Shown piece after piece: positions 5,534-29,588 of a stretch of 64,000 nucleotides of DNA. Both the position numbers and the translations under genes were made by a program. Each line of letters begins with the position of its first letter. The first letter of the stretch is position 1. The DNA is taken from positions 62,001 through 126,000 of the forward strand of contig QQUN01000012.1 in NCBI GenBank assembly GCA_008501585.1, in the 5' to 3' direction. The notes under the pieces were generated by a model. That model was not told where the DNA came from, searched no databases, and saw only the letters and a list, made by a program, of their open reading frames with translations. The stretch is from Pseudomonadota bacterium (GTDB lineage Bacteria; Pseudomonadota; Gammaproteobacteria; Burkholderiales; Rhodocyclaceae).

Positions 5534-6515
5534 CAACTGCCCGCCATCAGCGGTGGTTCGTCCATCAGCGCGATCTGCTCGCGCAGGGCGAGGATGTGGT
5601 CCTGCCAGTAGCGGGGGCTGTCGAACCAGCTGAAGGCGTGCGGGAAGGCGGGGTCGTGCCAGCGCTGGGCGATCCAGGCGGCGTAGTGGATCAGGCGCAG
5701 GGTGCGCAGGGCCTCGGCGAGATGGCGTTCGGCGGGGTTGAAGTCGTGGAACTGGCGGTAGCCTTCGAGCACCACGTCGAACTGCCGGCGCTGCTGGTCG
5801 GGTTCGCCGGACAACAGCATCCACAGGTCTTGCATGGCGGGGCCGCTGCGGGCGTCGTCGAAGTCGACGAAGTGCGGGCCGTCGGGTGTCCACAGCACGT
5901 TGCCGCCATGGCAGTCGCCGTGCAGGCGGACTTGCGCGACCGGACCGGCGCGGTCGAAACAGCGCTGCACCCCGTCAAGCGCAAGATCGACCACGCTGCG
6001 CCAGCTGGTTTCCAGTTCCATCGGCAGATAGGGCGTGGCGAGCACGGCGTCGCGCGCGTCGATGCCGTAGGTCTGAACATTGATGGCCGGGCGATGTGCG
6101 AAGGGGCGCTGGGCGCCGACGGCGTGGATGCGCGCCATGAAGCGGCCCATCCAGCGCAGCACGTCTTCGTTTTCCAGCTCCGGGGCGCGGCCGCCGCGGC
6201 GGGGGAAGATGGCGATGCGGTAGCCGCCGGCGGTGTTCAGCGTGTGGCCGTTGAGGGCTCGCGGTGCGACGACCGGGATTTCGCGTTCGGCCAGTTCGGC
6301 GAGAAAGGCATGCTCCTCGCCGATGGCCGCATCCGTCCAGCGATCGGGGCGGTAGAACTTGGCGATGACCGGCGGCGCGTCGTGAATGCCGACCTGGAAC
6401 ACGCGGTTCTCGTAGCTGTTGAGCGCCAGCACGCTGCCATCGCAGTCGAGCCCGAGCGCTTCGAGACTGTCGAGGAGGTGCTCGGGGGTGAGGGCGGCAA
6501 AGGGGGCGTCGGTGC

Positions 6516-6519
<4 letters not shown>
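5533..6519 (-). CDS. srkA: Stress response kinase SrkA (YihE/RdoA family)
   Basis: A 328-residue protein of the choline-kinase-like Ser/Thr kinase fold, the usual SrkA length. Visible features are the N-terminal SYENRVFQVG, the catalytic loop HGDCHGGNVLW with the Asp base, and the metal-binding FVDFDDARSGP. In E. coli SrkA is a cytoplasmic protein kinase that counters stress-induced death, acting downstream of Cpx. Its start overlaps the terC stop by 4 bp (ATGA), so the two are probably co-translated. Its stop codon lies at the boundary of repeat copy A, but the protein is full length, so the element landed beside the natural end. Confidence 0.9.
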
Positions 6520-7286
<767 letters not shown>

Positions 7287-7386
7287 GGTGTCCTCGATGA
7301 CGGCGTCGCCGGCCCCTGCCGGTGACGACGCGCCATGATAGCAAGGCCGGCATCGCCCCAGCGCCGGCCGCGCTACACTGCGATCC

Positions 7387-8190
7387 ATGAATGATTTGAA
7401 CGACTCCGAGCTGTTGTTCAGCGGCCAGATGGTGGCCGCGCTGCGCCGCGCCCGCCATGTGGTGGTGTTGACTGGCGCGGGCGTGTCGGCCGAAAGCGGC
7501 GTACCCACCTTCCGCGATGCCCAGACCGGCCTGTGGGCGCGCTACGACGCCACCGCCCTGGCCACGCCCGAGGCCTTCCGGGCCGACCCGGCACTGGTCT
7601 GGGGCTGGTACGAGTGGCGCCGCGCGGCGGTGATGCGCGCGGCACCCAACCCGGCGCACGTGGCCATTGCGGCGCTGGCCCGGCAGGTGCCGGCGCTGAC
7701 TGTGATCACCCAGAATGTGGACGACCTGCACGAGCGTGCCGGCAGCACCGGGGTGATTCACCTGCATGGCCGCCTGATGCAGCCACGCTGCTTTCAGTGC
7801 GGTACGCCATGGCGCTATCCCGCCGGCGCACCGGACGAACCCGAGGGCGGCCGTCGTGTGACGCCGCCGGACTGCCCGCGCTGCGCCGGGCCGATCCGCC
7901 CCGGCGTGGTGTGGTTTGGCGAAGGCCTGCCGGCCGACGCATGGCAGGCCGCGCTGGCTGCGGCCGCCGGTTGCGACCTGATGCTGGCGATTGGCACCTC
8001 GGCGCTGGTGTATCCGGCGGCGGAGTTGCCCCAGGTCGCGGTGAATACTGGCGCCACGCTGGTCCAGATCAATCCGCAGGCGACCAGCCTCGACGGCATC
8101 GCCCACTGGAACCTGCCGGGCGCCGCCGGCATGACGCTGCCCGCCCTGCTGCAGGCGGCCTTTGCCACGGGCATGAACGAAACGGCCTGA
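7387..8190 (+). CDS. cobB: Sir2 family NAD-dependent protein deacylase
   Basis: A 267-residue sirtuin. The NAD-binding motifs are GAGVSAESGVPTFRD and TQNVDDLHERAG, the catalytic His is in HLHGRL, and four zinc cysteines occur as C-x2-C and C-x2-C (RCFQCG, DCPRCA). The C-terminal NAD contacts are GTSALVYPA. WYEWRR supplies the Tyr-x-x-Arg pair that marks class III sirtuins, so desuccinylase or demalonylase activity is predicted besides deacetylation. No Shine-Dalgarno sequence precedes the ATG. TACACT sits only 7 bp upstream, so a leaderless or near-leaderless mRNA is possible. bdhA follows 38 bp downstream on the same strand. Confidence 0.9.
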   Translation: MNDLNDSELLFSGQMVAALRRARHVVVLTGAGVSAESGVPTFRDAQTGLWARYDATALATPEAFRADPALVWGWYEWRRAAVMRAAPNPAHVAIAALARQVPALTVITQNVDDLHERAGSTGVIHLHGRLMQPRCFQCGTPWRYPAGAPDEPEGGRRVTPPDCPRCAGPIRPGVVWFGEGLPADAWQAALAAAAGCDLMLAIGTSALVYPAAELPQVAVNTGATLVQINPQATSLDGIAHWNLPGAAGMTLPALLQAAFATGMNETA

Positions 8191-19156: not shown

Positions 19157-19732
19157 ATGATGAACAAGACCCTCATGATCGCTGCCATGGCCGGTGTGCT
19201 GGCATTGCCCGGCTGCACCACCACGGAAACCCAGAACAAGACCATTGGTGCCGTCTCCGGCGCGGTGCTCGGCGGTGTCGTCGGCAACCAGGTGGGGGGC
19301 CGGCGCAGTACGGTGGTGGGCGCGGCGCTCGGTGGTGCGTTCGGCTATCTGATCGGTTCGCAGGTCAAGGTCACCGAACAGCCGGACGGCTCGGTCAAGC
19401 TCGACATCCCCGGCGCGGTGCTGTTCGATACCAACAGTGCGCGGGTCAATCCTTCGTTTGCACAGACGCTGGACCAGATCGCCGGCACGCTCAACGAGCA
19501 TCCCAACGCGATGGTCAATGTGGTCGGCCACACCGACAGCACCGGCTCGGCCGAGTACAACCAGCGCCTGTCGCTGGACCGCGCCACCAGCGTCACCAAC
19601 TACCTGCAGGGCCGTGGTGTGGCGCCGGGCCGCCTGACGCCGACCGGCCAGGGCGAGGCCATGCCGATTGCCGACAACAGCACGGCCGAAGGGCGCGCCC
19701 AGAACCGCCGGGTGGAGATGTTCGTGCGCTGA
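19157..19732 (+). CDS. OmpA family outer-membrane lipoprotein (YiaD-like)
   Basis: A 191-residue lipoprotein. The signal peptide ends in the lipobox LPGC, with Cys about residue 17 to be acylated. A glycine-zipper segment follows (GAVSGAVLGGVVGNQVGG and GAALGGAFGYLIGS). The C-terminal OmpA domain binds peptidoglycan (VVGHTDSTGSAEYNQRLSL, then GRAQNRRVEM). It anchors the outer membrane to the cell wall. GACAGGAG precedes the ATG. A hairpin terminator follows the stop by 27 bp. Confidence 0.92.
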   Translation: MMNKTLMIAAMAGVLALPGCTTTETQNKTIGAVSGAVLGGVVGNQVGGRRSTVVGAALGGAFGYLIGSQVKVTEQPDGSVKLDIPGAVLFDTNSARVNPSFAQTLDQIAGTLNEHPNAMVNVVGHTDSTGSAEYNQRLSLDRATSVTNYLQGRGVAPGRLTPTGQGEAMPIADNSTAEGRAQNRRVEMFVR

Positions 19733-22006: not shown

Positions 22007-22861
22007 CTACCGAACGCGGCGACGGCGTGTCCAGTGTGCCGAGGGTTCGGTCACCGGCGGTGCGCTGGGGGCGACAGGCCGTGTGTGGTGGCGCCGGTGC
22101 GGTTTGCGGCGGGCCGCCACCCGGACCAGCGCGAGCATGGCGCGCGCGCCGAGGAACAGGAAGACCAGTGCGAGAAAGACCGGGTGGGTGAGGGTGTCCC
22201 AGATCAGGAACAGGAATTTCCCGAGTGCGTTGCGGCCGGATTCGCCGTTCCAGGGCGTGTTGCCCGGGCCGCTCGGGCCAGCCGCCTGGGCGGACCACAC
22301 GGCCGCCAGCTGCTCGTTCTGCGCCTGGGCGCTCATCAGTCGGGTGGTGGCGGTGTCGTCGATGCCCAGGGTTTCCAGCAGTTCGCGGCCGGCCTGATTG
22401 ATCTTGTCGCTGAGATTCCAGTCGAGCAAGGCGCTGACGCGGTCACGGACACCGCGCATGCGGGCCATCAGGGCGTCGTCGTCGGAGAACCAGGCGCGGG
22501 TGCGCGGCTGGTCGAAGACGAGCTCGTCAATGGCATCGGCAGGGTGGGCAAAGACGGGCTCGTCGCTATCCGGTGGTGCCGCGCGTGCGCGGTCGGTGGT
22601 GCTGATCAGGGTGTCGCTGTGAGGGCCGGCCAGCGTGGGATGCAGCGCCGTCTGGCGCTTGTCGGCGCCGAAGGCCGGCGCGGATCCGGCGCCGTCGGCA
22701 AAGGCCATGGGGGCGTCCGTGGCGTTCCCGGCCTGGCCGACCTCGATGGTGGTTGGCGAATGCGCCTGCTCTGCCAAGGGCATGGCGATGCCGGCAGACG
22801 CAAGGCTGCAGCACCAGAGGCCGACAAGGGCCCGGCGGCGGGAGCGGGAAAGCAGACTCAT
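22007..22861 (-). CDS. Exported single-span membrane protein of unknown function
   Basis: A 284-residue protein not assignable to a family. An N-terminal hydrophobic segment (residues about 9-28) follows a basic SRSRRRA, the middle is Ala/Asp-rich and probably periplasmic, one membrane helix lies near residues 223-242 (HPVFLALVFLFLGARAMLAL), and the tail is strongly basic (RRKPHRRHH). It follows pdsS on the same strand after 91 bp and may be its co-transcribed partner. It has no LPxTG-like motif, so it is not an obvious sortase substrate. The ATG is preferred to a TTG at 22897. Confidence 0.65.
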   Translation of the reverse strand: MSLLSRSRRRALVGLWCCSLASAGIAMPLAEQAHSPTTIEVGQAGNATDAPMAFADGAGSAPAFGADKRQTALHPTLAGPHSDTLISTTDRARAAPPDSDEPVFAHPADAIDELVFDQPRTRAWFSDDDALMARMRGVRDRVSALLDWNLSDKINQAGRELLETLGIDDTATTRLMSAQAQNEQLAAVWSAQAAGPSGPGNTPWNGESGRNALGKFLFLIWDTLTHPVFLALVFLFLGARAMLALVRVAARRKPHRRHHTRPVAPSAPPVTEPSAHWTRRRRVR

Positions 22862-22952
22862 GCCGACAATCAAGCAAGCTGCACGCCACTTCTGCAATAA
22901 ATTGTTTTGATTCTGTTTTTTTATGTTTCGTCGCCCGGCGGACGCGGCGGTG

Positions 22953-24617
22953 TCAAATTTGCTGACGGCTCACGGGACTCGCCAGCGGGAAGGTGGCGCT
23001 CAACACCACACCGTCGCCCGCCGGCAGGTTGCGGCCGGCCAGGTGGCCGCCATGGAAGCCGGCGATCAACTGCGCGACATAGAGCCCGAGGCCCAGGTGG
23101 GGCTCACCGGTGGCGTCGCTGCCGCGCCCCGATACCATCGAGTCGAACAGCTTGCCTTCGAGCGCCGCCGGCAGGCCGGGGCCGAGGTTGCTGACGCTCA
23201 GTTCGGCATGGCTCCCGGTGGTGCTGAGGTGGAGGCGGATCGCGGTGCCGGCGCGGGCGAAGTCGACCGCGTTGTCGACCAGCTTGTCGAGCATCTGGGC
23301 GGCCAGGTCGGGGGCGCCGCGAAGCCACACCGCATGCGGTGGCAGCTCGGCCTCGAAGCGCTGCTCGGGGTGGGCGAGCCGGTAGCCGGCCAGGCATTCG
23401 CCCACCACCGCGGCCAGGTCGAAACGCTCCGGATCGGTGGTGGCCAGGGCCTGTTCCATGCGCGTGGCTTCGCTCATGCGGGCGAGGATGCGGGTCAGCC
23501 GGTGCAGGCCGGCATCGGCGCGTTCCAGGTAGGTGCTGGCGGCCGGTGGCAGGGACTCGAGCTGGAGGTTTTCGAGCGAGGAGCGCACCACGGCCACCGG
23601 CGTGCGCAGTTCATGCGACAGGCGGCTGGCGATGGTCTCGAGGTAGCCGTGATGCTGGGCCAGGCGGGCGAGCAGGGTGGAAAAGCTGCGCGACAGGTCG
23701 CCCACCTCGTCACCGGCGGTCGACGCCGCGGTCAGCCCGGTGATGCGGCCGCGGGCGTCGATGGCGCTTTCGGCCTCGTCGCGCAGGGTGCGGATGCGCC
23801 AGGACAGGCGCGAAGCAAAGCCGAGCACCACCCCGGCGGCAACGGCCAGGCCGGCGAAGGTGAGCCAGGCCAGGCGTTCGACCGCCTGGTCGCGCACCGC
23901 CTGGATCGCCAGCGTGCTCTCTTCGACCACCACGGCGCCTTGCACCCGGTCGGCGACCCAGACCGGATGCGCCGCGGCGACCACCAGCACGTCGCTGCCG
24001 GCCACCGGGCGCAGCCAGGAGGTGGTGGCGCCGAAGAGGGTGCCGGAGATGGCCTGGCCGCTCGGCGGCGGCGTGTCGGCCAGGCGGGCGGCGGGGGTGT
24101 CCGGGCGCAGGCCGACGCTGCCGAGCAGGCCATGCCAGAACGACTGTAGCGGCCCGGCCGGGGCGGCGGCCGGCGGGGCCAGCGAGCCGGTGTGGGTGAT
24201 GACGTCGAGGTCGCGGTCGATGACCCAGATGCGCGCCGTGTTGCGCTCGAGTGCCCGCAGGATGGCGGCCACTTCGGCGGCGCCATCGACCGGTCGCGCC
24301 GGGGCGGCCATGCGCGGCGGCTCGGCGGGCGGCGTCTCTGGCATGCTGGCAATGGCCAGTTCGAGCACCTCTTCACCCGGCAGCAGCGAGTCGCTCAGGC
24401 TGACCGTGCTGCTGCCCGGGGTGCGTCCGAACAGCTGCGGGCGTTCATGTAACGCCGTGGCCACGGCGCGGGCGGTGGCGATCAGCCCCTGGCGCTGGCC
24501 ATCCAGCAGGAAGCGTTCCATTTCCTGCACATACTGGTAGCCCACCCAGGGCAGGGCGAGCAGAACCAGGGCCATCAGGGCGAGCTTGCTGCGCAGGCTG
24601 AAGCGGAGTGGCGTCAC
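22953..24617 (-). CDS. pdsS: Sensor histidine kinase of proteobacterial dedicated sortase system (PdsS type)
   Basis: A 554-residue membrane sensor kinase. A first membrane helix (LALMALVLLALPWVGYQYV) leads to a ~240-residue periplasmic sensor, a second helix near 255-275, a HAMP-like linker, the H-box SRLSHELRTP (phospho-His about 335), and an ATPase domain with DNAVDFA and GLGLYVAQ. The stretch LFDSMVSGRG is typical of the kinase family TIGR03785 (PdsS) that accompanies class GN sortases. Its partner is the regulator at 25909, separated by an inserted divergent gene. A GTG start at 24617 is chosen because the fold begins there; the frame stays open far upstream. Confidence 0.85.
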   Translation of the reverse strand: MTPLRFSLRSKLALMALVLLALPWVGYQYVQEMERFLLDGQRQGLIATARAVATALHERPQLFGRTPGSSTVSLSDSLLPGEEVLELAIASMPETPPAEPPRMAAPARPVDGAAEVAAILRALERNTARIWVIDRDLDVITHTGSLAPPAAAPAGPLQSFWHGLLGSVGLRPDTPAARLADTPPPSGQAISGTLFGATTSWLRPVAGSDVLVVAAAHPVWVADRVQGAVVVEESTLAIQAVRDQAVERLAWLTFAGLAVAAGVVLGFASRLSWRIRTLRDEAESAIDARGRITGLTAASTAGDEVGDLSRSFSTLLARLAQHHGYLETIASRLSHELRTPVAVVRSSLENLQLESLPPAASTYLERADAGLHRLTRILARMSEATRMEQALATTDPERFDLAAVVGECLAGYRLAHPEQRFEAELPPHAVWLRGAPDLAAQMLDKLVDNAVDFARAGTAIRLHLSTTGSHAELSVSNLGPGLPAALEGKLFDSMVSGRGSDATGEPHLGLGLYVAQLIAGFHGGHLAGRNLPAGDGVVLSATFPLASPVSRQQI

Positions 24618-24809
24618 GGCGGCAGGGTGGGGGCGGCGTTGGACGGGCGAGGGCGAGCGTGTCGCTGGCCGACTATAGCACCGGCTCACCTGTCTCGCCG
24701 ACGCAACTTGAGGTGACAAGCGTAACCAATTCCTCGCGGATTTAAGCCGGGTGCATGGTAAAAAGTCACCTTGTGCCGCAACATGTTCGCGATACGGGAG
24801 CAAACAGGG

Positions 24810-25895
24810 ATGGGGCCCCTTTATTCGATTTCGTTTTCTGGTGACGTGCTCGACGGGTTCGACCCGGGGCAGGTCAGGCAGCGCTTCGGCAAACGCTTCG
24901 GGCTCAAGTCGGCCCAGCTGGCGCAGATCTTCTCCGGCCAGGCCATTGTCTTGAAGAAGGGGCTGGCCGCCGAGCAGGCCCGGCATTACGTGGCCGAGCT
25001 GGCGGCCATGGGCCTGCTGGCGCGCGCACGGGCCATGCCGCCCGCAGACGGCGGGCCGGCAACGCCCCCGTCGCCGGCGGGGTATCGCATCGTGTTTGGC
25101 GGCAAGGTAATGCCGGGGTTCTCGCGGGAGGCGGTGATGCGGATGTCGGGTACCCGGCTGCGCTTCAATGACCGCCAGCAGGCCATGCTGTTCTCCGGCC
25201 AGACCGTCACCATCAAGCGGGGGCTGAGCGAGGCGAAGGCGCGAAACTACATCAAGACCCTGCGCCAGATGGGCATGGACGTCGCTGCCGACCCGGCGCT
25301 GCCCGGCCCGGTCCAGCCGGTGGCTGAGGCCGAGGCGCCCGATGGCGCCACCGAGGCCAGCCTGATGCAGACGCAGTTCAGTGCCTCGGTGCCCTACAAC
25401 GTCCAGGCGACCTTCGACGGCAGCTCCTCGCTCGACATGATCCGTGCCGGCATCGACGCGGCTGACCGGCGCGGCGATGCGGCCTTTGGCAACTCGCGCT
25501 CCGGCATGATGCAGACCATCATCAATCCCGACGCCATCCGCGAGTACGAAAAGGAGCTGGCCGAGGACCCGGCCCTGGCCGCGCTGCGTGCCGCCCATGA
25601 TGCCCCGGCTGCCGCCCCGGCCGCCAAGGCGCCGGTGCCGGTCGACTTCGATTTCACCGCGCCGCCGCCGCGCAAGGTGACCCCGGCCGCGCCTGCGGTT
25701 GAGTCGCCACCGCGCCCGGCACCGGTTGCCGCCCCACCGGTCATGCCGGCGCCCGCGCCCGCGCCGGTGTCACGTCCGCCGGAACCGCCGCCGCCCGCCG
25801 CGGCCCGGACCAGCCGCACGGGCACCTTGGTGGCGGTACTGGTGGTCGCGGCCGCGATTGCCCTGACCCTGCTCTACCTGAACGGCGGCGTTTGA
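24810..25895 (+). CDS. Tail-anchored protein with two tandem ~66-residue domains, unknown function
   Basis: A 361-residue protein. Residues about 5-70 and 92-157 are copies of one domain. Each begins Y-x-I-x-F-x-G and contains FSGQ-x3-KKGL or KRGL, then an Ala-rich helix ending in -MG-. A linker rich in Ala and Pro (about 275-340) leads to one C-terminal membrane helix (TLVAVLVVAAAIALTLLYL) with almost nothing after it, so the N-terminal domains face the cytoplasm. It is divergent from pdsS, converges on pdsR (13 bp) and splits the kinase-regulator pair. The ATG at 24810 is chosen because the repeat domain begins there and GGGAG lies upstream. Function unknown. Confidence 0.75.
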   Translation: MGPLYSISFSGDVLDGFDPGQVRQRFGKRFGLKSAQLAQIFSGQAIVLKKGLAAEQARHYVAELAAMGLLARARAMPPADGGPATPPSPAGYRIVFGGKVMPGFSREAVMRMSGTRLRFNDRQQAMLFSGQTVTIKRGLSEAKARNYIKTLRQMGMDVAADPALPGPVQPVAEAEAPDGATEASLMQTQFSASVPYNVQATFDGSSSLDMIRAGIDAADRRGDAAFGNSRSGMMQTIINPDAIREYEKELAEDPALAALRAAHDAPAAAPAAKAPVPVDFDFTAPPPRKVTPAAPAVESPPRPAPVAAPPVMPAPAPAPVSRPPEPPPPAAARTSRTGTLVAVLVVAAAIALTLLYLNGGV

Positions 25896-25908
25896 TCGGC
25901 GGGCGTGC

Positions 25909-26598
25909 TCAGGCGCGCCAGCGGTAGCCGGCACCATAGACGCTCTCGATCTGGTCGAAGCCCGGATCGACCGCCGTAAATTTCTTGCGGATGCGCTTGA
26001 TGTGCGAGGTGATGGTGCCGTCGTCCACCACCAGGTGGGCGTCGGCCATCAGCTGGTCGCGGTTCTTCACATGGCCGGGGTGGCGGGCCAGGGTGTGCAC
26101 CATCCAGAACTCGGTCAGTGTCAGCGCCACCGCCCGGCCCTGCCAGGTGGCGCTCAGGCGGCTGATGTCCAGCTGCAGCGGGCCGCGCGCCAGCTGGTCT
26201 TCGGTCGGCCTGGCCTCGGCCAGCACATCCACCCGCCGGAACAGCGCCGCCACGCGGGCGAGCAGGTGCGGCAGGCTGATGTCCTTGGTCAGGTAGTCGT
26301 CGGCGCCCAGGCGCAGGCCCGAGACCACGTCGAAGTCGCTGTCGCGGGCGGTCAGGAAGATGATCGGCAGGCGCTGCGACAGCGCGCGCAACTCGGCGCA
26401 CAGCGTAAAGCCGCCCTCGGGCTCGTTGCCCAGGCCGATGTCGATGATCGCCAGCCCCGGCAGGCGCTCGCGGAAGGCCGCCAGCGCGCTGGGCCGGTCG
26501 GCGTCGGCCGACACCCCGTAGCCCTGGCGTGCGAAGGCGTCCGAGTAGTTCTCACGGATGGCGGCTTCGTCTTCGACAATGGCGATTCGGCGTCCCAT
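25909..26598 (-). CDS. pdsR: OmpR-family response regulator of dedicated sortase system (PdsR type)
   Basis: A 229-residue regulator. The receiver domain has VEDEAAI, phospho-acceptor Asp53 in LAIIDIGLG, and LTKDIS near residue 104. The C-terminal winged helix shows LTLTEFWMVHTLA and VYGAGYRWRA. It matches what I know of family TIGR03787, the regulator that accompanies PdsS and the class GN sortase. It is divergent from the sortase target gene, with 152 bp between starts, so it probably controls that promoter. Confidence 0.88.
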   Translation of the reverse strand: MGRRIAIVEDEAAIRENYSDAFARQGYGVSADADRPSALAAFRERLPGLAIIDIGLGNEPEGGFTLCAELRALSQRLPIIFLTARDSDFDVVSGLRLGADDYLTKDISLPHLLARVAALFRRVDVLAEARPTEDQLARGPLQLDISRLSATWQGRAVALTLTEFWMVHTLARHPGHVKNRDQLMADAHLVVDDGTITSHIKRIRKKFTAVDPGFDQIESVYGAGYRWRA

Positions 26599-26750
26599 GG
26601 GGCGCTACTCTAGCACCGCCGGGCGCACGGCGGCGGCTGCCATTTTTCTGCCACATTTGATCCGCGCTTTGCCCGATTCGGTGCCCGAAGGGGCCGGTTT
26701 TCCCCGTTTCAATGGTCGTGTCGAAAAACGCCATTTGAATGGAGACCGCC
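26599..26750. promoter_or_regulatory. Divergent promoter region of pdsR and the sortase target gene
   Basis: 152 bp between divergent genes, with CCATTT recurring at about 26640 (GCCATTTTTCTG) and 26731 (CGCCATTTGAATGG). It probably carries the PdsR binding site, but I see no unambiguous direct repeat. Confidence 0.4.
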
Positions 26751-28889
26751 ATGACCCCCGCACCGCTTGCCTTTTGGGACCGCGCCCGAGAAGTGGCCGA
26801 GCTGCTCGCCCGGCTGCTGTTGATGTTCGTCACCGGCCTTGGCGTGAGCCTGGCGCTCGGCGCCCTGGTGCTGTTGCTGGCCGGGCCGGCGCAGGCCGCG
26901 ACGAGGGATGACGGTGCGGTGCAGCAGGGCACCTTGCTGTTTCGCGGTGCTGATGGGGGCGATCCGGTGGCGGCCCCCTTGCTGCACACCGATGTCGCGC
27001 TGCGGGTCAGCGGCCCGATCGTGCGCGCCAAGGTGGTGCAGCGCTTCCGCAACCCGGCGCATGACTGGCGCGAGGGGACCTATGTGTTCCCGCTGCCCGA
27101 GAACGCGGCCGTCGATCGTATGCGCATCCAGGTGGCGGACCGGGTGATCGAGGGTGAAATCCAGGAACGCGCCCAGGCCCAGGCGACCTACGAAAAGGCC
27201 AAGGCCGAGGGCAAGGCCACGGCGCTGGTGTCGCAGGCGCGGCCGAACATCTTCACCACCCGGGTGGCCAACATCGGCCCGCGCGACGAGATCCGGGTCG
27301 AGATCGAATACCAGCACACACTCGACTACGCGGTGGCCGACGGTGTGGGCCGCTACAGCCTGCGCTTCCCGATGGTGGTGGCGCCGCGCTACATCCCCGG
27401 GCAGGTGGTCGCCGACGAGGAAAGTGGCGCCGTCGTCGGTACCGACGTGGTCCCCGATGCGGCGGCCATCCTGCCGCCGATGATGCTGCCCGACGAGGCC
27501 GGCCCGATCATCAATCCGGTGAGTCTGAATGTCTATCTCGACGCCGGCGTGCCGATTGCCTCGGTCGACAGCCCCTTCCATCGCGTGCGTGTCGACACCC
27601 TCAAGCCCTCGGTGCGCCGCATCCGCCTGAGCGAGGGGCGCACGCCGGCCAACCGCGACTTCGTGCTCAACTGGACGCTGGCCGCCGGCAGCGCGCCGCA
27701 TGCCACGCTGTTCGTCGAGCCGGGCTCGGACCGCGACCACGCGCTGCTGATGCTGGTGCCGCCGGCACCGGGCACGGTGGGCAAGCGCCTGCCGCGCGAG
27801 GTGGTGTTCATTGTCGATACCTCCGGTTCGATGGAAGGCGCCTCGATCGTCCAGGCGCGCGAGGCGCTGGCCATGGCGCTGACCCGGCTCGACGCCGAAG
27901 ACCGTTTCAACGTCATCGAATTCAACTCGACGGCGGCGGCGCTGTACACCGCCGCCCAGCCGGCCAGCCGGGCCAATGTCGGCCATGCCGTGCGCTGGGT
28001 GCAGCGCCTGCACGCCCGCGGGGGCACCGAGATGGCTGGCGCGCTGGATCTGGCGCTCGACGGCAGCCGCGATGCGGCGCGCGTGCGCCAGATCGTGTTC
28101 CTGACCGACGGCGCGGTCGGCAACGAAGCCCAGCTGTTCGGCATGATCGCGCAGCGCCTGGGCGACTCGCGCCTGTTCACCGTCGGCATCGGCTCGGCGC
28201 CGAACAGCCACTTCATGCGCAAGGCGGCGCAGGCAGGGCGGGGCAGCTTCACCTACATCGGCAAGGTCGAGGAGGTGCGTGCGCGCATGTCCGAGCTGTT
28301 TGCCCGGCTGGAGTCGCCAGTGGTCAAGGGGCTCACCGTCACCTGGCCGAGCGGCGCGCGTGCCGACAGCACGCCGGACCCGCTGCCCGACCTGTATCTG
28401 GGCGAGCCCGTGGTGGTGGCCGCGGCCATCGACCGTACCGTCGGTGGCGAGGTGCGCCTGAGCGGCGATTCGGGCGACATCCGCTGGACCAGCTCGCTCG
28501 CGCTCGACGCGGCCAACCCCGGCGAGGGCATCGGCGTGCTGTGGGCGCGACGCAAGATCGACCACTGGATGGACACCCTGGCCGACGGCGCCGACGAGGC
28601 CGCGGTGCGCGAGAAGGTGCTGGCCCTGGCGCTTGAGTTCCGGCTGGTGAGCCAGTTCACCAGTTTCGTCGCGGTCGACAAGACGCCCGCCCGTTCCGCC
28701 GACGCCCGTCTCAAGTCCGGCGCGGTGCCGGCGCACTTCCCGGCCGGCTGGTCGCCCTCAGGCGTGTATGGCGAATTGCCGCAAGGCGCCACCGACACCC
28801 GCTGGCACCTGCTGCTCGGCGCCCTGGCGCTGGCCGCGTTCTTCCTCACCCGTACGCCGCGCGTACGCCAACTGACCATGAAGGGGTAA
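26751..28889 (+). CDS. VIT and VWA domain sortase target protein (marine_srt_targ type)
   Basis: A 712-residue surface protein. A long signal sequence (hydrophobic core LLLMFVTGLGVSLALGALVL, cleavage near AQAA) precedes a VIT domain (about 60-190). A von Willebrand A domain follows with the MIDAS motif DTSGS starting at Asp356 and FLTDGAVGNE. The C-terminus is a sorting signal: LPQGAT at 676-681, a membrane helix (LLLGALALAAFFL) and a basic tail. This is the architecture of TIGR03788, the usual sole substrate of proteobacterial class GN sortases. GGAG 8 nt before ATG 26751 decides the start over 26739. The sortase gene follows by 3 bp. Confidence 0.92.
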   Translation: MTPAPLAFWDRAREVAELLARLLLMFVTGLGVSLALGALVLLLAGPAQAATRDDGAVQQGTLLFRGADGGDPVAAPLLHTDVALRVSGPIVRAKVVQRFRNPAHDWREGTYVFPLPENAAVDRMRIQVADRVIEGEIQERAQAQATYEKAKAEGKATALVSQARPNIFTTRVANIGPRDEIRVEIEYQHTLDYAVADGVGRYSLRFPMVVAPRYIPGQVVADEESGAVVGTDVVPDAAAILPPMMLPDEAGPIINPVSLNVYLDAGVPIASVDSPFHRVRVDTLKPSVRRIRLSEGRTPANRDFVLNWTLAAGSAPHATLFVEPGSDRDHALLMLVPPAPGTVGKRLPREVVFIVDTSGSMEGASIVQAREALAMALTRLDAEDRFNVIEFNSTAAALYTAAQPASRANVGHAVRWVQRLHARGGTEMAGALDLALDGSRDAARVRQIVFLTDGAVGNEAQLFGMIAQRLGDSRLFTVGIGSAPNSHFMRKAAQAGRGSFTYIGKVEEVRARMSELFARLESPVVKGLTVTWPSGARADSTPDPLPDLYLGEPVVVAAAIDRTVGGEVRLSGDSGDIRWTSSLALDAANPGEGIGVLWARRKIDHWMDTLADGADEAAVREKVLALALEFRLVSQFTSFVAVDKTPARSADARLKSGAVPAHFPAGWSPSGVYGELPQGATDTRWHLLLGALALAAFFLTRTPRVRQLTMKG

Positions 28890-28892
28890 GCC

Positions 28893-29588
28893 ATGGGAAC
28901 CGTTTGCCACAACTGTCATCACAGCGAATTTCTTGGCGTCGAATGCGCCTGGCCGGCACCGGGGTGCATTGACCGCAGCACCACGCGCCGCCAGCGCTGG
29001 CTGTCCCGGGGGATCAAGGCCGTCGCGATCGCCAGCCTGCTCCTCGCGGTGCTGCAATTCGGCCAGGCCGGCTACATCCAGGCCAAGGCCTGGCTGGCGC
29101 AGACCCTGATCAGCCAGGCCTGGCAGAAGACGCTGGCCGGCGAAGGGCAGGTCAAGCCCTGGCCGTGGGCCGACACCTGGCCGGTCGCCCGCTTGCGGGT
29201 GCCCGCTCGCGGGGTCGATCTGTATGTGCTGGCCGGCAGCCAGGGCCGCACGCTGGCCTTCGGGCCGGGGCATGTGTTCGGCACGGCCGACCCCGGCGAG
29301 GCCGGCAACAGCGTGATCGGCGGGCACCGCGACACCCACTTCGCCTTCCTGCAATGGCTGCAGGCCGGGGATGCGGTGGCGGTGGAGATGCCTTCGGGCG
29401 AGGTGGCCACCTACCAGGTGACCGAGCAGCGGGTGGTCGACAAGGACGACACCGGCGTGATGGCGCCGGTGCCCGACGCGCCGCGGCTGACGCTGGTGAC
29501 CTGCTATCCCTTCGACGCGTTGCGCGCCGGTGGCCCGCTGCGCTATGTGGTGACTGCCGAGCCGGTTGCGCCGGGCACGGCGATGTAG
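28893..29588 (+). CDS. Class GN sortase with Cys-rich N-terminus
   Basis: A 231-residue sortase. One membrane helix (about 41-59) is followed by the transpeptidase domain, with catalytic His145 in GGHRDTHF, Cys204 in LVTCYPF and Arg217 in PLRYVV. It should cleave LPQGAT of the protein encoded immediately upstream. The first 40 residues are unusual: Cys5, Cys8, Cys18 and Cys25 in the spacing C-x2-C-x9-C-x6-C, with several His, predicted to lie in the cytoplasm and perhaps bind zinc. The start is supported by AAGGGG 6 nt upstream, and no later in-frame start precedes the membrane helix. Confidence 0.92.
   Translation: MGTVCHNCHHSEFLGVECAWPAPGCIDRSTTRRQRWLSRGIKAVAIASLLLAVLQFGQAGYIQAKAWLAQTLISQAWQKTLAGEGQVKPWPWADTWPVARLRVPARGVDLYVLAGSQGRTLAFGPGHVFGTADPGEAGNSVIGGHRDTHFAFLQWLQAGDAVAVEMPSGEVATYQVTEQRVVDKDDTGVMAPVPDAPRLTLVTCYPFDALRAGGPLRYVVTAEPVAPGTAM

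Follow-up and report, generated by a model that had tools for sequence, protein, structure and literature searches.

A 64,000-nucleotide stretch of DNA from a bacterium of the Rhodocyclaceae (assembly GCA_008501585.1, contig QQUN01000012.1, positions 62,001 to 126,000; hereafter the window) carries a locus that we read as a Rhodocyclales version of the proteobacterial dedicated sortase (PDS) system: a class GN sortase that would anchor a single VIT/VWA protein, probably under the control of a two-component switch. Taken as a whole, from gene families to acceptor, this account stands in our judgement about an even chance of being right. Genome sequences have long pointed to sortases in Gram-negative bacteria; the system itself is already known, and excerpts of PMC10581121 show that class GN sortases of the source's genus are in print. 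The new leads are a predicted operator and the architecture of the sensor. The locus is a clean minimal case, with one enzyme, one cargo, and one promoter, laid out as follows.

22953 to 24617, minus strand: PdsS-like sensor histidine kinase, 554 amino acids, GTG start, short type (TIGR03785, below cut-off)
23613 to 23615, minus strand: phospho-acceptor H335 of the kinase
25909 to 26598, minus strand: PdsR, an OmpR-type response regulator (TIGR03787)
26639 to 26675, plus strand: predicted PdsR operator, with GCC half-sites at offsets 0, 11, and 32, GCCATTTTTCT-GCCACATTTGATCCGCGCTTT-GCCCG
26739 to 28889, plus strand: sortase target, by profile match (TIGR03788)
26982 to 27311, plus strand: VIT domain of the target, residues 82-191 (PF08487, 115 bits)
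27798 to 28247, plus strand: VWA domain of the target, residues 354-503, with DTSGS, which we take to be a metal-site-type motif (PF13768, 71 bits)
28776 to 28793, plus strand: sorting motif LPQGAT, before a hydrophobic stretch and basic tail
28893 to 29588, plus strand: class GN sortase, 231 amino acids, N-terminal helix and beta catalytic domain (TIGR03784)
29325 to 29327, 29502 to 29504, and 29541 to 29543, plus strand: sortase catalytic residues H145, C204, and R217

The original prediction, made from the letters alone, had put a kinase, a regulator, a target, and a sortase at these coordinates, and all four are there as open frames. Their identity as a PDS holds for the three that pass their NCBI cut-offs: the sortase (TIGR03784, 233.4 vs 158.25 bits), the target (TIGR03788, 761.8 vs 551.65 bits, with both VIT and VWA domains matched), and the regulator (TIGR03787, 373.3 vs 335.7 bits). 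It holds only in part for the kinase, for which TIGR03785 is the best family by 363 bits, yet which scores 494.7 bits, 118 under the cut-off of 612.2; its best stretch covers positions 259-702 of the 703 in the profile. The outcome that was to refute the prediction, an absence of above-cut-off model matches, did not occur. The finer claims were borne out as well. The target ends in ELPQGATDT followed by a hydrophobic stretch and then a basic tail, 3 bp (28890-28892) separate target and sortase, and regulator and target diverge with 140 bp (26599-26738) between them. The word "complete" went too far: the genome has no PdsO (TIGR03789, one more of the NCBI models for the system), its best match reaching 76 bits against a cut-off of 152, and the kinase, a short-type one, lacks a CBM9-like periplasmic domain. 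The locus resembles the PDS as modelled in its adjacent genes and in the one target found; it departs from it, besides these absences, in the Gly rather than Thr at the fourth place of its motif and in an extra gene between regulator and kinase. The sortase is present in all 10 genus genomes, and each of the nine further loci read from the genus has the four genes. The true target start may be the ATG at 26751, which would keep the MTPAP N-terminus of the relatives and has GGAG upstream.

The sortase belongs to its superfamily by both triad and fold. H145, C204, and R217 are invariant across 61 aligned sequences, the window's included, and the AlphaFold model (mean pLDDT 90) matches solved sortases with probability 1.00. 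Next-best sequence matches are the Gram-positive class D/E sortases (NF058671, NF033746, NF033747), and NF058671 is described as LPxTATN-specific, near the window motif; the window sortase nevertheless falls below their cut-offs (98 vs 140, 95 vs 165, and 74 vs 160 bits). It is the single sortase domain found in its genome.

A sorting motif was matched in 88 of 91 targets and in none of the other three, with a pattern that preset T/G at the fourth place and A/G/S at the fifth; the count leaves out L093, where no target was found, and targets of minus-strand loci from L095 onward. Among the 88, the first residue is L in 49, F in 22, Y in 9, M in 7, and V in 1; the fourth is T in 59 and G in 29, the fifth A in 84, and the sixth T in 80. 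LPQGAT is, on this tally, one form of a putative class-specific (L/F/Y/M)Px(T/G)AT signal and not LPxTG. Sortase residues that might read Gly vs Thr were sought, and the differences seen are confounded by lineage. Within its own genome the sortase appears to serve one target: a tail model gives a single convincing match (E 6.4e-16) and five weak ones. Just one of the five spans the motif (E 0.86), and it falls within a multi-pass transporter-like protein, away from the C-terminus. The general LPXTG model TIGR01167 missed the true target and returned 12 weak matches (E 0.12-9.4), including two at the cut-off that were not inspected.

These features suggest a mechanism. The target would be exported by Sec and, to judge by its architecture, stay in the inner membrane through the helix at its C-terminus. 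The sortase, its catalytic domain presumably in the periplasm, would recognise LPQGAT and cleave it with Cys204 through a thioester, as expected from triad and fold. The VIT/VWA protein might then be passed to an amine acceptor, perhaps a peptidoglycan stem peptide or lipid II. The acceptors of known sortases are amines in peptidoglycan or pilins. Peptidoglycan is our guess for the acceptor because sortases use amines there and no dedicated partner gene would be needed. Our full-text literature search, mostly of papers outside subscription journals, showed among the listed papers no report of an acceptor, a purpose, or an operator for a Gram-negative sortase.

Enzyme and cargo are paired across the phylum. 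In a sample of 398 genomes, a sortase (a TIGR03784 match at E<=0.001) occurs in 37, in 33 of them above the cut-off, and these are the same 37 that hold an above-cut-off TIGR03788 target. By their listed coordinates, the two genes are adjacent and on the same strand in all 37. Any TIGR03788 match at all is found in 164 genomes once weaker ones, mostly VWA proteins, are included. The next five targets by score (404-435 bits) come from genomes without a sortase; they carry a PEP-type signal and lie beside exosortase Q (4) or exosortase T (1), the last with some 45 further residues after the signal. A cargo relative in genome G074 (215 bits) lies next to a rhombosortase, and one in G251 (144 bits), for which no sorting enzyme was sought, ends in a GlyGly-type tail; no sorting tail is visible on the second cargo copy of sortase genome G213 (239.5 bits) or on G298 (155 bits). 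Excerpts of PMC3237569 had noted cargo relatives beside other sorting enzymes, an observation that these results extend. Loci L175-L179 hold sortase-target relatives with PEP-type tails adjoining exosortase Q or T.

The rhombosortase/GlyGly-CTERM and exosortase/PEP-CTERM systems share with the sortase a tripartite C-terminal signal and VIT/VWA cargo relatives, although their membrane enzymes and motifs are unrelated to the sortase's own. Since relatives of one cargo stand beside them elsewhere (exosortase Q or T in five cases, rhombosortase in one), the enzymes may be interchangeable, which narrows what processing must achieve. Such exchange speaks for a lipid acceptor instead: the same system, with the amine of phosphatidylethanolamine or another amino-lipid as acceptor, would swap the protein's membrane anchor for a lipid anchor. 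Neither exosortases nor rhombosortase is known to use peptidoglycan. A lipid anchor is the product proposed for rhombosortase in Vibrio, whose substrate VesB bears a glycerophosphoethanolamine-containing moiety, with added masses of 43 or 197 Da, according to excerpts of PMC6219818; exosortases, archaeosortases, and rhombosortases also appear, in excerpts of a 2025 paper (PMC11980579), to leave their substrates membrane-anchored on the surface. The excerpts of PMC6219818 add that VesB next requires type II secretion to reach the surface, and GspL (PF05134) has no match at E<=0.001 in our genome, where other parts of type II secretion were not searched. GspL is matched in 20 of the 37 sortase genomes vs 169 of the 361 others; by this marker type II secretion is not general among sortase genomes, and type II export of the target is not supported. 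The peptidoglycan and pilin amines used by known sortases likewise tell against a lipid acceptor, which we consider unlikely.

It is less probable still that the sortase is mainly a hydrolase, freeing the target into the periplasm or medium with no covalent acceptor. In keeping with that idea, no acceptor gene stands out beside the target-sortase pair in 80 loci: the neighbour clusters (built from frames of at least 80 amino acids) common to at least 17 of them are those of the target, the sortase, the two-component genes, and an OmpA-like gene, the latter at 17 of the 80 loci, about 10 of these adjoining the target, and so not at most loci of the system. The enzyme is, however, closely related to sortases that are transpeptidases, and no neighbour gene would be needed if the acceptor were a general one, peptidoglycan or lipid for instance.

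The first new lead lies in the divergent promoter between regulator and target. At 26639-26675 stands a tandem-repeat element, GCCATTTTTCTGCCACATTTGATCCGCGCTTTGCCCG, a conserved element whose half-site spacing (offsets 0, 11, and 32) would suit a regulator of the OmpR type. We trained a matrix on just ten sites, all from the genus, and compared it with 40 control windows per locus; it scored above all 40 of a locus's own controls in 37 of 47 further PdsR loci and in 8 of 28 that lack PdsR. A core pattern matched 37 of 50 loci with an adjacent PdsR (three of the genus) vs 3 of 29 without; outside the tested region, the two strands of these loci gave 8 matches. For six cut contigs without PdsR (L043, L050, L057, L059, L062, and L077), matrix and pattern both scored the wrong region, most of the contig rather than the part upstream; a seventh, L090, at 58 bases, is too short for the pattern. 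A held-out set was drawn from the phylum sample: 20 of its 36 other sortase genomes, with no megablast match to the first set. The element was found in 5 of the 8 with PdsR, always between regulator and target, and in 3 of the 12 without, once far from the target. Genome-wide, the window's source has a single exact copy, two more sites differ from it by three mismatches, and a reversed control pattern has none; the predicted operator looks like PdsR's only strong site in the genome. Within the window, a shuffle test showed no second copy; that test used the window's own sequence, which makes the single match one by construction. PdsS and PdsR probably control the target-sortase pair here: PdsR would bind the predicted operator and act on the divergent promoter of regulator and target-sortase genes, a switch that can be tested by footprinting.

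The second lead is the sensor. Kinases from 43 sortase loci come in two lengths: 18, all from the 22 loci closest to the window's (L015-L036), have 529-582 amino acids, and the other 25 have 664-711. The stretch between the two membrane parts measures 201-228 residues in 16 short kinases vs 352-380 in 16 long ones. Folded with 30 relatives, this part of a long kinase (from L053) reaches a mean pLDDT of 86, and its best Foldseek matches are the CBM9 carbohydrate-binding modules 1i82 (E 1.5e-7, probability 1.00) and 7nwo (E 4.6e-6). A putative carbohydrate-binding protein and ethylbenzene dehydrogenase chain C come next, so the fold alone is no proof that sugars are bound; after them come extracellular domains of WalK, at E 0.005-0.01. 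Pfam would not have served by itself, as CBM9_1 matched two of nine kinases (seven of the nine long), both below its cut-off. By alignment, the window kinase lacks the CBM9-like part and retains a Cache-like part. Because all 18 kinases from L015-L036 are of its size, the short kinase reads as a lineage type and not as damage. CreC, WalK, and other Cache-type sensor kinases share the kinase core and, by the weak WalK structural matches, the Cache-like region, but score far lower in sequence, and long-type PdsS kinases add the CBM9-like domain. That domain suggests a signal class to try on long-type kinases: saccharides.

Several observations weigh against our account of a PDS with a peptidoglycan acceptor and a PdsR operator. 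In other genomes, exosortases or rhombosortase serve relatives of the cargo. Excerpts of PMC8176591 report that Shewanella oneidensis lost no significant amount of current density, nor gained any, when srtA was deleted. The window kinase misses the TIGR03785 cut-off, as do seven of eight other kinases scanned among the 43 (the remaining one passes with 781.9 bits). As to the operator, many of the loci scored had already been seen when the core pattern was drawn up, it is missing from 13 of the 50 PdsR loci and from 3 of the 8 held-out ones, and 7 of the 29 loci lacking PdsR lie on contigs whose start falls within or close to the target, which left no region to test. PdsR itself is missing within the roughly 4 kb fetched upstream of the target in 12 of the 20 held-out sortase genomes, and the switch is therefore not essential to the sortase-target pair. 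Finally, the target of genus member G001 (L138, 8514-10661) lies in three pieces and two frames at 96% identity, by either sequencing error or decay.

A bolder joint proposal strikes us as a long shot: that the class GN sortase is an inner-membrane C-terminal lipid transferase joining the VIT/VWA protein to phosphatidylethanolamine, that it thereby makes the rhombosortase's product by unrelated chemistry, that a two-component switch acts through a single strong operator, and that the long-type sensor reads a saccharide through its CBM9-like domain. That the locus is a decaying remnant, with a split operon, a shortened kinase, and PdsO missing, is very improbable: the 554 amino acids of the window kinase against 664-711 in the 25 long ones, the gene inserted between regulator and kinase, the frame breaks in G001, and the traces in a sortase-free family member, G033, would fit it, but the frames here are open, the genus keeps sortase and gene set, and the kinase length is that of its lineage.

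The start of the sortase carries a further feature.

28905 to 28967, plus strand: sortase N-terminal motif CHNC-x5-LGVECAWPAPGC, presumably cytosolic, with its core LGVECAWP at 28932 to 28955

The same region in the 22 closest loci (record titles include Rhodocyclaceae, Thauera, Betaproteobacteria, and similar) carries an LG(V/I)EC, GAEC, or LGVES form; L029 has the form LGKEC in a different frame from the sortase. A CxxC precedes the motif in nine of these loci, and in L029 as well. In L037-L094, among them L053, titled Betaproteobacteria, and in G058 of the same order, a search of the sortase start gave no motif of this type, which is thus typical of a Rhodocyclales-like group and not of all Betaproteobacteria. 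The region is of low confidence in the AlphaFold model; a metal or docking site is a conceivable role. We discarded the idea that LGVECAWP is a tag common to other proteins: it occurs in 12 of 61 relatives' genomes, 11 with a sortase and the twelfth being G033, and a search of 300 genomes of the order matched only the source genome.

The gene between regulator and kinase had been omitted from the original prediction.

24810 to 25895, plus strand: 361-amino-acid protein between regulator and kinase

Its sequence apparently comprises two domain copies of about 70 residues, a proline-rich linker, and a C-terminal hydrophobic helix, and it has no Pfam or NCBIfam match. In each of the 10 loci read from the genus (the window, L015, L016, L019, and L138-L143), the gene sits between pdsR and pdsS. 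Regulator and kinase are 1.29-1.36 kb apart in L015, L016, and L019 vs -25 to 166 bases in the remaining loci of the kinase set; tblastn found no match to the protein in L017, L018, L020-L036, L144, or L145. With the gene in this place only in this genus, the kinase here cannot share the regulator's transcript, as the kinases of relatives may. Relatives of the protein are also found where no sortase is matched, in G016, G020, G022, G035, and G056. We rejected it as a new part of the system, given its genus-limited position and these sortase-free relatives, and it is probably a bystander.

G033, a genome of the same family in which no sortase is matched, has within about 1 kb (L137, about 6392-7500) an operator with one mismatch, an LGVECAWP motif, and a frame that by eye resembles the target N-terminus, beside a gene that is presumably glgC. 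It seems to keep only these pieces, and is an apparent remnant of a sortase system; tblastn of the window proteins gave no match on this locus, so this reading rests on short features.

Two further genes lie near the kinase. A 296-amino-acid protein (22007-22897), just downstream of it and on the same strand, has no family match; it has a C-terminal hydrophobic stretch and a very basic tail, and is found at 42-65% identity in L019, L138, L140, L141, and L143. An OmpA/glycine-zipper lipoprotein (19157-19732) was considered as PdsO and rejected at 93 vs 152 bits, whereas it passes the YiaD model (183 vs 175 bits). This YiaD-family lipoprotein lies 3 kb from the kinase and is 94-99% identical in five genus loci.

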